Of a DNA stretch of 64,000 bases, positions 49,171 through 52,262 are shown in pieces (position 1 is the stretch's first letter; every line of letters starts with the position of its first letter). The translations under genes and the position numbers were made by a program. The stretch comes from Stutzerimonas decontaminans (GTDB lineage Bacteria; Pseudomonadota; Gammaproteobacteria; Pseudomonadales; Pseudomonadaceae). The stretch spans positions 372,001 to 436,000 of the forward strand of contig NZ_CP007509.1 of assembly GCF_000661915.1 (NCBI RefSeq), written 5' to 3'. Under the pieces are notes generated by a model. That model was not told the DNA's origin. It did not search any database and saw nothing but the letters and a program-made list of their open reading frames with translations.

Positions 49171-49309
49171 GGTTGCAGTGGTATTGATAGTGACCGGTAA
49201 AAACTATCTGGTCATAAAAAGACGCTTAATCCTGTCCTGGTTATTCGGTTAGACTCGCTGGAAACGGCCCATAGTGGCCGCAACCCAGTGTCTTGCGAGG
49301 AACCTTGCC

Positions 49310-51088
49310 ATGGCCGACTACCAAGCGCCGCTGCGCGACATGCGTTTTGTCCTGAATGAAGTCTTCGACGCGCCGAAACTCTGGCAGTCGCTGCCAGCGC
49401 TGGCGGAGGTGGTCGATGCCGAGACGGCCGATGCAATTCTCGAGGAAGCTGGCAAGATCACCGCCAATAGCATCGCGCCGCTGAACCGCAGCGGTGATGA
49501 AGAAGGCTGCCGCTGGGACGCCGGGGCGGTTTCTACTCCTGCCGGTTACCGCGAGGCTTACCAGTTGTACGCCGAGGGCGGCTGGGTCGGCGTCGGTGGC
49601 GATCCGGCATTTGGCGGCATGGGCATGCCCAAGGTCATCTCGGCTCAGGTCGAGGAGATGATGAACTCCGCCAGCCTGGCATTCGGCCTCTATCCGATGC
49701 TGACGTCCGGCGCCTGCCTGTCGATCTACGCCCACGCCAGCGAGGAGCTCAAGCAGAAGTACCTGCCGAACATGTATGCCGGTGTCTGGTCCGGTTCCAT
49801 GTGTCTGACCGAACCTCATGCCGGGACTGATCTGGGCATTATCCGCACCAAGGCCGAGCCTCAGGCAGACGGCTCCTACAAAGTCAGCGGGACCAAGATC
49901 TTCATCACCGGCGGCGAGCACGACCTGACCGAGAACATCATCCATCTGGTGCTGGCTAAGCTGCCGGACGCCCCGGCTGGCTCTCGCGGCATCTCGTTGT
50001 TCCTGGTGCCCAAGGTAATGGTCAACGAGGACGGCACGCTGGGTGAGCGCAACTCGCTGTCCTGCGGTTCCATCGAGCACAAAATGGGTATCCAGGCCTC
50101 GGCGACCTGTGTGATGAACTTTGACGGTGCCACCGGCTGGATGGTCGGCGAGCCGAACAAGGGCCTGGCTGCGATGTTCACCATGATGAACTACGAGCGT
50201 CTGGGTGTCGGCATCCAGGGCCTGTCGACTGGCGAGCGTTCCTATCAGAGCGCCATCGAGTACGCCCGCGATCGTATCCAGAGTCGCGCACCAACCGGGC
50301 CTGTGGCTCAGGACAAGGCGGCCGATCCGATCATCGTGCATCCCGACGTGCGTCGTATGCTGCTGACCATGAAGGCACTGAACGAGGGCGGCCGGGCGTT
50401 CTCCAGTTATGTCGCGCTGCAGCTCGACATCGCCAAGTTCAGCGATGACGACGAGGCCCGGCAGCGCGCCGAGGCTCAGGTCGCGCTGCTGACACCGGTA
50501 GCCAAGGCCTTCCTCACCGATATGGGTCTGGAAACCACGGTACATGGCCAGCAGATCTTCGGCGGCCATGGCTTCATCCGTGAGTGGGGGCAGGAGCAGC
50601 TGGTGCGTGACTGCCGCATTACCCAAATCTACGAGGGTACTAACGGCATTCAGGCGCTGGACCTGGTCGGGCGCAAGATCGTCGGCAGTGGTGGCACCAT
50701 GTATCAGGCCTTCGTCGACGAGATCCGTGCGTTCATTGCCGATGCCAATCCTGAGCTGGCGGAGTTTGCCGAGCCGCTCAAGGCCGCAATGGACAATCTG
50801 GACGAGCTGACCGCCTGGGTTATCGATCAGGCCAAGGCCAACCCGAACGAAATCGGCGCCGCCTCGGTGGAATACCTGCATGTGTTCGGCTACACCGCCT
50901 ACGCCTATATGTGGGCGCGCATGGCCGCAGTCGCGTTTGCCAAGCGGGAGGAGGGAGACTTCTACCAGAGCAAGCTCGGTACCGCGCGCTTCTATTTCGC
51001 GCGATTGCTTCCGCGAATTCATTCGCTGAGCGCTTCGGTGAAAGCTGGCAGCGAGTCGCTGTACCTGCTCGACGCGACGCAGTTCTAA
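49310..51088 (+). CDS. Acyl-CoA dehydrogenase (FadE2-like paralogue)
   Basis: 592 residues. Begins MADYQAPLRDMRFVLNEVF, close to the [19 protein letters not shown] start of the gene at 45914, so they are paralogues from an old duplication. FAD-site motif [57 protein letters not shown]; catalytic Glu in IYEGTNGIQALDLVGRK. ATG 49310 has GCGAGGA upstream. No PsrA box is seen before it, so control may differ from its partner. Position matches PA0507/PA0508 as I recall. Confidence 0.9.
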   Translation: MADYQAPLRDMRFVLNEVFDAPKLWQSLPALAEVVDAETADAILEEAGKITANSIAPLNRSGDEEGCRWDAGAVSTPAGYREAYQLYAEGGWVGVGGDPAFGGMGMPKVISAQVEEMMNSASLAFGLYPMLTSGACLSIYAHASEELKQKYLPNMYAGVWSGSMCLTEPHAGTDLGIIRTKAEPQADGSYKVSGTKIFITGGEHDLTENIIHLVLAKLPDAPAGSRGISLFLVPKVMVNEDGTLGERNSLSCGSIEHKMGIQASATCVMNFDGATGWMVGEPNKGLAAMFTMMNYERLGVGIQGLSTGERSYQSAIEYARDRIQSRAPTGPVAQDKAADPIIVHPDVRRMLLTMKALNEGGRAFSSYVALQLDIAKFSDDDEARQRAEAQVALLTPVAKAFLTDMGLETTVHGQQIFGGHGFIREWGQEQLVRDCRITQIYEGTNGIQALDLVGRKIVGSGGTMYQAFVDEIRAFIADANPELAEFAEPLKAAMDNLDELTAWVIDQAKANPNEIGAASVEYLHVFGYTAYAYMWARMAAVAFAKREEGDFYQSKLGTARFYFARLLPRIHSLSASVKAGSESLYLLDATQF

Positions 51089-51178
51089 GCGGCGCGGCTT
51101 AATCTAAAGGCAATATGAAATTATTTGGCCATGATGCGGAACGATTAAGTCGCCCCTTCGGTCATAAAAACCGCGCAA

Positions 51179-51237
51179 TGTAAGCTTGGACTTACAGTTC
51201 TGCATCACGGATGACGCGGTGTAGGAAAAGGCTTACA
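51179..51237 (+). promoter_or_regulatory. Two GacA boxes upstream of an Rsm sRNA
   Basis: TGTAAG-N6-CTTACA at 51179-51196 is a perfect GacA upstream activating sequence. TGTAGG-N6-CTTACA at 51220-51237 differs by one base. Their centres are 41 bp apart, about four helical turns. GacA-P activates rsmX/Y/Z promoters through this element in Pseudomonas. Confidence 0.85.
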
Positions 51238-51264
51238 AGGCGTGATGCACAATGGCTACTACAG

Positions 51265-51419
51265 GTCCGCAAGGGCAGGCAGTAATCTACTGGATAGGGA
51301 CGTGGCGCATGGAAAGCGCGAATCAACAATACGGACCACACAGGGAGCGGTGCCAGGATGGCGCGCGATCATGGATGTCAGGATTCAGTCTGCAGAGCCC
51401 CGCTTCGGCGGGGTTTTTC
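51265..51419 (+). ncRNA. Rsm-family small RNA (RsmA/CsrA-titrating)
   Basis: About 155 nucleotides with eight GGA motifs between 51292 and 51383. Two sit in hairpin loops, the preferred RsmA target: GCGC-ATGGAAA-GCGC (51305-51319) and GCC-AGGAT-GGC (51352-51362). It ends in a CCCCGC-TTCG-GCGGGG terminator with five T residues (51398-51418). Together with the GacA boxes this is the signature of RsmX, RsmY or RsmZ; I cannot say which. The exact 5' end is uncertain because no clear -10 is visible; 51257-51262 (TACTAC) is one candidate. It should sequester RsmA and relieve translational repression when GacS/GacA is active. Confidence 0.85.
51398..51418 (+). terminator. Terminator of the Rsm sRNA
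   Basis: A 6-bp CCCCGC/GCGGGG stem closed by a TTCG tetraloop and followed by TTTTT. Confidence 0.93.
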
Positions 51420-51500
51420 TTTTCTGCTTAGTCCTCCTCCAGCCATTAGCCATTCAAATGGCCTTCTGGCGCCTCTGGCTTAGTCCGTCTTCCTAAAGCA

Positions 51501-52148
51501 TCAATTCGGCAGGCACACGCCGGTTCCGCCCAGCCCGCAATATCCCCCCGGATTCTTTGCCAGATACTGCTGGTGGTAAGCCTCTGCGTAGTAGAACGGC
51601 GGCGCGTCGTCGATCTCGGTGGTGATGGCCGGAAAACCCGCTGCGCTCAGCCGCTGCTGGAAACGTTCACGACTCGCCTCTGCCTCGCTGCGTTGCTGCG
51701 CATCCATGCAATAGATCGCCGAACGATACTGGCTGCCGACATCGTTGCCTTGCCGCATCCCTTGGGTCGGGTTGTGCGCTTCCCAGAAAACGCGCAACAG
51801 TGTGCTGTAGTCGATCTGCTGCGGATCGAAGACCACCAGTACCGCCTCCGTATGTCCGGTGAGCCCGGAACAGACTTCATCGTACGTCGGGTTCGGCGTC
51901 AGGCCTCCGGCATAGCCTACGGCTGTGGTCCACACGCCCGGTAACTCCCAGAACCGGCGTTCTGCTCCCCAGAAGCAGCCCATGGCGAATATGGCTTGGG
52001 AAAATCCGGCGGGAAAAGGCGGCTGCAATGGGTTGCCGTTTACATAGTGGGCAGGCGGGACCGACATGGGCGTCGAGCGGCCGGGCAGGGCCTGCTCGGC
52101 AGTCGGCAGCGCCTGTTTGTTGACCAGTATCTGCGAGCGTAGCGACAT
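51501..52148 (-). CDS. msrA: Peptide-methionine (S)-S-oxide reductase
   Basis: Repairs S-form methionine sulfoxide in proteins. 215 residues with catalytic Cys58 in [11 protein letters not shown]; further motifs [26 protein letters not shown] and [10 protein letters not shown]-terminal resolving Cys in [15 protein letters not shown] 52148 has GAGG 5 bases upstream. Downstream of dipA on the same strand; the 3' end faces the Rsm sRNA. Confidence 0.95.
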
Positions 52149-52262
52149 GTTTGCCTCGATCGGTTTAGCGGGCTGGCAAGCTAGGCTACAAAAGCGCGAG
52201 TAACAGCGAAAGCTTGGCAACGACCACGCGTCGCCGAACTTGGCAAAAGCGCTTGGCTGAGC

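Follow-up and report, generated by a model that had tools for sequence, protein, structure and literature searches.

A second GacA box, a predicted upstream promoter and a covarying GGA-loop hairpin precede rsmY in Stutzerimonas

Introduction

Why should a small RNA of the Rsm type be preceded by two GacA boxes, and what may lie between and upstream of them? The question is raised by a locus within the window, the whole 64-kb stretch of Stutzerimonas decontaminans DNA that was analysed, for which a preliminary description had proposed an Rsm-type RNA behind two GacA boxes, the second of them regarded as unusual, and had suggested that the RNA might be an additional RsmX-like copy. The passage of PMC4682653 on this point, citing earlier work, gives only rsmY and rsmZ as reported direct targets of GacA in Pseudomonas aeruginosa. 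The rsmY gene of P. stutzeri A1501 has been studied experimentally: according to the rsmY sections of PMC8249394, its level is strongly reduced in a gacA mutant and the RNA binds RsmA with a Kd of 55 nM, and 5' RACE of rsmY was performed (methods of PMC8249394), the same rsmY text speaking of "a" conserved GacA-binding site, in the singular.

Methods

Fifty-seven loci of the genus, yielding 47 distinct box-to-box segments, were compared with 70 loci from 69 genomes of 14 other genera; this second set comprised 30 loci and a further 40 picked for genus spread from the RsmY matches, and is a selection, not all matches. Upstream stretches were read to 400 nt, and conservation of the upstream module was taken from an alignment of 52 distinct genus loci. 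A first hairpin alignment held 45 segments, two that had no GGA in the spacer being left out, and had G008, G039 and G022 wrongly anchored; the covariation set held 43 segments, G008, G024 and G051 having been dropped, identical 21-mers merged, and G039 and G022 re-anchored by hand. Compensatory changes were counted on an acyl-CoA dehydrogenase gene tree of 54 leaves, in which genus g1 is not monophyletic.

Results

Identity and extent of the small RNA

The claim of an Rsm-type RNA is borne out by an Rfam covariance search, which returns RsmY (RF00195) at 91.6 bits (gathering score 57) on the plus strand over the full length of the model (positions 1-121; Table 1). This is the only Rfam match over cut-off in the whole window and the only match above the RsmY cut-off genome-wide; at the locus itself RsmY alone passes its gathering score, and rsmX (RF02144) is not the best match. 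RsmY is likewise found over cut-off in all 56 genus genomes searched. By its sequence, the locus is the rsmY gene of this Stutzerimonas species, an RsmY orthologue, and the RNA is presumably a GacA-controlled RsmA sponge. Since the same genome also holds RsmZ and two tandem rsmX genes elsewhere, the proposal of an additional RsmX-like copy is ruled out.

The two rsmX genes lie about 1 kb apart on the minus strand (L002:512-621 and 1500-1609, at about 4.243-4.245 Mb of C1), with a sub-threshold Rfam match to cspA between them. They share with rsmY the GGA hairpins and a GacA-box-like palindrome, TATAGC-N6-CTTACA, which by eye stands roughly at the canonical distance, but they belong to another family and form a tandem pair, with one box seen for each. 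The genome has three CsrA-family matches and a GacA (L222), which shows 88% identity to a partial GacA query. A plasmid or phage origin of the region was considered and rejected, positions 51089-51430 giving no plasmid match and 51089-51240 no phage match.

Table 1. Features of the rsmY locus (window coordinates)
Feature	Positions	Strand	Basis or remark
Acyl-CoA dehydrogenase gene, upstream context	49274-51088	+	ORF; four acyl-CoA dehydrogenase domains above the Pfam cut-off
A/T-rich conserved block, GGCA...TGAAATTATTTGGCCATG, upstream of P2	51109-51133	+	genus conservation
P2 -35-like GGAAC, ECF-sigma type (predicted)	51138-51142	+	1.75 bits mean, against 0.78 in spacer
P2 -10-like GTCATAA (predicted)	51161-51167	+	1.46 bits
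Long RsmY from P2 (predicted)	51174-51417	+	about 244 nt, start +/- 3; from -10 position and covarying hairpin
Distal GacA box, perfect TGTAAG-N6-CTTACA, TGTAAGCTTGGACTTACA	51179-51196	+	0 mismatches
RsmA-type hairpin, loop ACGGAT at 51207-51212	51200-51219	+	covarying stem
Proximal GacA box, TGTAGGAAAAGGCTTACA	51220-51237	+	1 mismatch; centre about -67 from RsmY start
P1 -10-like TAATCT of short RsmY	51283-51288	+	conserved TA.TCT, 1.64 bits over 51282-51288
RsmY small RNA	51296-51417	+	122 nt, seven GGA; RF00195 91.6 bits
Intrinsic terminator, last part of RsmY	51394-51417	+	Rfam match and terminator scan
msrA, peptide methionine sulfoxide reductase, convergent neighbour	51501-52220	-	ORF; PF01625 210 bits

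The boundaries of the RNA differ in part from those first proposed. A transcript start near 51250 had been expected, and the Rfam model instead places it at about 51296, behind a -10-like element of the short RsmY promoter (P1) that a plain sigma-70 scan misses. The strong tetraloop terminator that had been proposed is confirmed, and is GC-rich. The eight GGA motifs that had been counted are present in 51240-51417, but only seven of them (51298-51381) lie inside the RNA, the eighth (51292) being upstream of the expected start; the placing of two of them in hairpin loops holds on the Rfam alignment, as judged by eye, whereas the single-sequence minimum-energy fold differs from that structure. 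As for the neighbours, an acyl-CoA dehydrogenase gene precedes rsmY in all 30 genus loci compared; of 30 loci tested from other genera, 19 have one within the same 3 kb. An msrA match accompanies rsmY in 25 of the 30 genus loci and in none of the 30 others.

The canonical and the additional GacA box

Both boxes are present as first described, the perfect one and, 41 bp further on from start to start, the one with a single mismatch. They are the only matches with at most two mismatches in the window, for which the chance mean is 0.49, and two matches anywhere in the window were reached by 9 of 100 shuffles. Because the chance of such a box is only about 3e-5 per position (shuffled upstream sequence), two of them 41 bp apart before an Rsm RNA are not to be expected by chance. 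Among the other-genus loci, a single box (at most two mismatches, within 140 nt of the RNA) was found in 62 of the 70, spread over 14 genera, two boxes in one (G092, genus g11) and none under the same rule in seven. With the extra box of G092 left aside, the distance from the start of the box to the RNA is 74-79 nt, and the proximal box of the window, starting 76 nt before RsmY, stands at this canonical distance. As the single boxes of other genera occupy the proximal place, it is the imperfect proximal box that is canonical and the perfect distal box that is additional. The second box is thus indeed unusual, two boxes occurring in 1 of 70 other-genus loci against 50 of 57 genus loci (at most two mismatches each), but the extra one is not the imperfect box.

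Within the genus, the spacing in the 50 two-box loci is nearly constant, at 41 bp in 34, 42 bp in 14, and 40 and 38 bp in one each. The distal box is absent from two of the 57 loci (G008 and G024) and has three or four mismatches in five more. A perfect box is found in the distal place in 21 loci and in the proximal place in 23, one locus having both and 14 neither. One clade has a perfect distal and an imperfect proximal box and another the reverse, as though a strong site had been retained alongside a weak one. The two halves of the distal box are conserved at 1.16 bits (left) and 1.57 bits (right), compared with 0.45 bits in diverged flanks and 0.25-0.30 bits in the adjacent hairpin stems. 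The possibility that the distal box is a mere RNA stem was considered and is thought unlikely, because its letters are conserved while the neighbouring stems vary and covary.

An exact two-box scan of a species-genome collection returned 35 stretches, 22 titled Stutzerimonas, seven titled Pseudomonas and six others. RsmY was present in all 29 of the Stutzerimonas- and Pseudomonas-titled stretches (by its core sequence in 23, by Rfam in the remaining six), and the six others, all multi-box stretches, gave no Rfam RNA over cut-off.

Several further palindromes of this kind were met. In the window's own genome, another perfect GacA-box palindrome (C1:130980-130997; L004:1501-1518) lies beside what looks by eye like an epimerase gene; its 3-kb locus yielded no Rfam RNA, and the palindrome may be due to chance. 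A locus of Marinobacter gelidimuriae (L139:3065-3195) has six GacA-box-like 18-mers (0-2 mismatches) in steps of 22-23 bp, with no Rfam RNA over cut-off. In Halomonas campaniensis (L151:4818-4878), two GacA-box-like palindromes 43 bp apart lie upstream of genes that resemble, by eye, those of type IVB secretion or conjugation (IcmL/IcmK-like). In three loci of genus g17 (L110, L111 and L112, from G071, G086 and G096), the distance from a GacA-like box to the RsmY model start downstream of it is 273-287 nt, and this interval is full of GGA, as though RsmY had expanded into a longer RNA of the CsrB kind.

A conserved module with a promoter-like element

The distal box belongs to a conserved module of about 110 bp between the dehydrogenase gene and the canonical box, which consists, in order, of the A/T-rich block, GGAAC, GTCATAA and the box itself; between the dehydrogenase stop codon and the module, conservation is low (0.65 bits). 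The A/T-rich block, which has one other site in the genome within three mismatches (with exactly three), may be interpreted as UP-element-like. Of the 57 genus loci, 55 have the pattern GAAC-N17/18-GTCNT(A/G) at the same place, and 52 have the full GGAAC; none of the 70 loci from other genera has the pattern. In the 55 loci the distal box follows 17-19 nt after the start of the GTC. The two genus loci that lack the pattern are the same two that lack the distal box, G008 and G024. Earlier, non-identical versions of the pattern gave 34 of 57 genus and 0 of 70 other-genus loci in a strict form, and 2 of 70 other-genus loci in a looser one. In G092 the whole module is recognisable by eye, though altered. 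On our reading of the pattern, its spacing and letters fit a promoter of the ECF-sigma type, and the predicted element is called P2. A 14-nt inverted repeat (51091-51104 and 51143-51156, 86% complementary) brackets the A/T-rich block and the P2 -35 element.

Promoters of AlgU (RpoE-type) have the consensus GAACTT-N16/17-TC, as given in the promoter passages of PMC7641640 and PMC9141998. P2 is like them in its GAAC core at -35, its spacing and the (G)TC of its -10, and is unlike them in what follows the GAAC, which is GA in 27 loci, AA in 21, GT in six and GC in one, but TT in none of the 55. The algU promoter itself keeps the TT, with GAACTT...GTCTAT in 30 of 30 genus loci examined, so that AlgU is no more than a candidate for P2. 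For SigX, the passage in PMC7641640 states that the consensus is not precisely defined. In the window's own genome the P2 pattern is not enriched, with four matches including that at rsmY against ten for a reversed-pattern control, and no regulon can therefore be named; among the promoters of nine PF08281-list genes, a clear GAACTT...GTCTAT was seen only at algU.

A covarying hairpin between the boxes

The spacer between the boxes contains a hairpin of the form known from RsmA/CsrA sites, with ANGGA in the loop of a short stem. The optimum for RsmE, and the loop motif of RsmA/CsrA sites, is CANGGANG. Across the 43 aligned segments the loop GG is invariant and the two loop A's are kept in at least 90%, GGA being replaced by GGC in two species; few positions in the region are less conserved than those of the stem. 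The stem positions are nonetheless paired in 77.1% of cells, compared with 61.6 +/- 2.1% in shuffles, and their covariation is 0.597, compared with 0.291 +/- 0.030 in shuffles and at most 0.190 for slid partners. The dehydrogenase gene tree yields about 12 double compensatory changes, compared with 1.0-4.5 when the partners are slid. Of 46 distinct spacers, 40 contain a stem of 3 bp or more with a GGA loop; the corresponding share is 14% for shuffled spacers and 8% for stretches taken at random from the window. Against the hairpin stand the six of 46 distinct spacers without a stem and the inner stem pair 5-16, which is not formed in 25 of the 43 sequences. Of five measures, one, the number of pairs changed on both sides, gave no excess (5 against 5.1 in shuffles), and pair-breaking changes (28.1 against 8.7-33.6 in slid controls) are not rarer than in some controls. 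G008, which has no module, passes the test for a stem of at least 3 bp, presumably by chance. Because covariation under a fixed loop is a signature of RNA, the inter-box spacer is probably transcribed, on the plus strand, and the ANGGAN loop agrees with a putative RsmA site.

Discussion

The surroundings of the distal box suggest a second, upstream promoter at least as much as they suggest a steeper activation of the known one. The explanation that we favour proposes that RsmY output depends on two inputs, one from GacA and the other from a stress sigma factor. Phosphorylated GacA (GacA-P) at the proximal box would switch P1 on and yield the ordinary 122-nt RsmA sponge. P2, possibly read by a sigma factor of the envelope-stress type with AlgU as a candidate, would give a transcript that starts a few bases before the distal box and runs to the RsmY terminator. 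There would then be a second, longer RsmY with one more RsmA site, for which the predicted fold has a z of -2.32. A protein bound over the first transcribed bases usually blocks initiation. The distal box lies only a few bases past the predicted start of the P2 transcript, so GacA-P bound to it, over the first bases of that transcript, would most simply block P2, and the distal dimer, being nearly in phase with the proximal one at 41-42 bp, could also assist P1. How its action is divided between repression of P2 and help to P1 is the least certain step. The explanation as a whole, namely RsmY with P1 and the proximal box, an ECF-like P2 giving a long RNA, and a distal box acting on P2 or P1, we consider somewhat likelier to be right than wrong. 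Its sharper version, in which a long RsmY carrying an additional RsmA hairpin arises from an ECF-sigma P2, and GacA-P at the distal box shuts P2 off while activating the short form, is put forward tentatively, as a possibility on which we would not wager.

Two observations from A1501 count against this proposal. In the algU mutant, the changes named in section 3.2 of PMC9141998 are lower rsmA and rsmZ, rsmY being absent from those named, which is counter-evidence to the P2 mechanism; and that the A1501 rsmY text speaks of one GacA site is counter-evidence to the proposed mechanism as well.

The preliminary description, whose interpretation is overall partly supported, had envisaged a simpler role for the second box, and a steeper response through two boxes is possible. 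The two boxes would be tandem activator sites alone, at which GacA-P dimers about four helical turns apart jointly activate P1 and make the response steeper or more sensitive; the upstream block would be the site of another regulator, and there would be no long RNA of importance. Such an arrangement accords with a spacing that hardly varies, 48 of the 50 two-box loci having 41 or 42 bp, with the conservation of the boxes, unlike the stems between them, as DNA letters, and with the fact that clades differ in which box is perfect. However, it leaves unexplained both the covarying GGA-loop hairpin in the spacer and the GAAC...GTC element, which stands 17-19 nt from the box in all but two of the 57 loci, those two lacking element and box alike. 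We regard tandem activation by itself as rather unlikely.

Transcription of the spacer might alternatively come from further upstream, the hairpin lying in a 3' extension of the acyl-CoA dehydrogenase mRNA that runs to the RsmY terminator, with P2 being no promoter. A plus-strand terminator scan of 51060-51500 finds none before 51394, and the dehydrogenase gene is also near rsmY in many of the other-genus loci tested (19 of 30, as above), as read-through would have it. The hairpin, however, tracks the P2 module and not the gene order: in G024 the dehydrogenase stop codon almost abuts the single box, and neither module nor hairpin is present. In addition, conservation is high at GGAAC and GTC but low from the dehydrogenase stop to the module, and read-through appears improbable to us. 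The suggestion that 51296-51417 encodes an RsmX-like RNA separate from RsmY, which could appeal to the further Rsm RNAs of the genome (the two tandem rsmX), deserves practically no credence given the RsmY score of a locus that is the sole match over the RsmY cut-off in a genome with RsmZ elsewhere.

The RNA itself is already known. The locus shares with RsmY of Pseudomonas (RF00195) and of A1501 the RNA family, the terminator, the canonical GacA box and the dehydrogenase neighbour (the last in 19 of 30 other-genus loci tested), and differs in the extra module of a second GacA box, a P2-like element and a GGA hairpin, the A1501 rsmY text mentioning one GacA site. For csrB of E. coli and Salmonella, the promoter sections of PMC4682653 describe one 18-bp UvrY inverted repeat with a partial extra sequence nearby, and for csrC a half repeat upstream, with in vivo crosslinks of csrB/csrC at two places; extra half sites thus have precedent. 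In contrast to rsmY here, csrB/csrC as described there have one full repeat far upstream (near -182), the only place of an in vitro footprint, and neither a hairpin nor a further complete repeat at 41-42 bp is described. In those parts of the open-licence literature that were searched, neither two GacA boxes before rsmY nor a second rsmY promoter was found, and P2 and the inter-box hairpin were likewise not met. What is new relative to these sources is that a further complete box stands at a nearly fixed distance from the first, the two enclosing a hairpin that covaries.

The usual view of rsmY, as a box and an Rfam body, can miss upstream sequence that is structured and probably transcribed. 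The genus-wide combination of a second box, a stress-sigma-like element and a hairpin offers a direct, testable case of an RsmA sponge that may have a second input and two lengths. If the proposal is true, one DNA segment would switch the RsmA sponge between envelope-stress and GacS/GacA inputs. RsmA is described as repressing algU mRNA in A1501 in the relevant part of PMC9141998, and if the sigma factor were in addition AlgU, a positive loop would thereby be closed.
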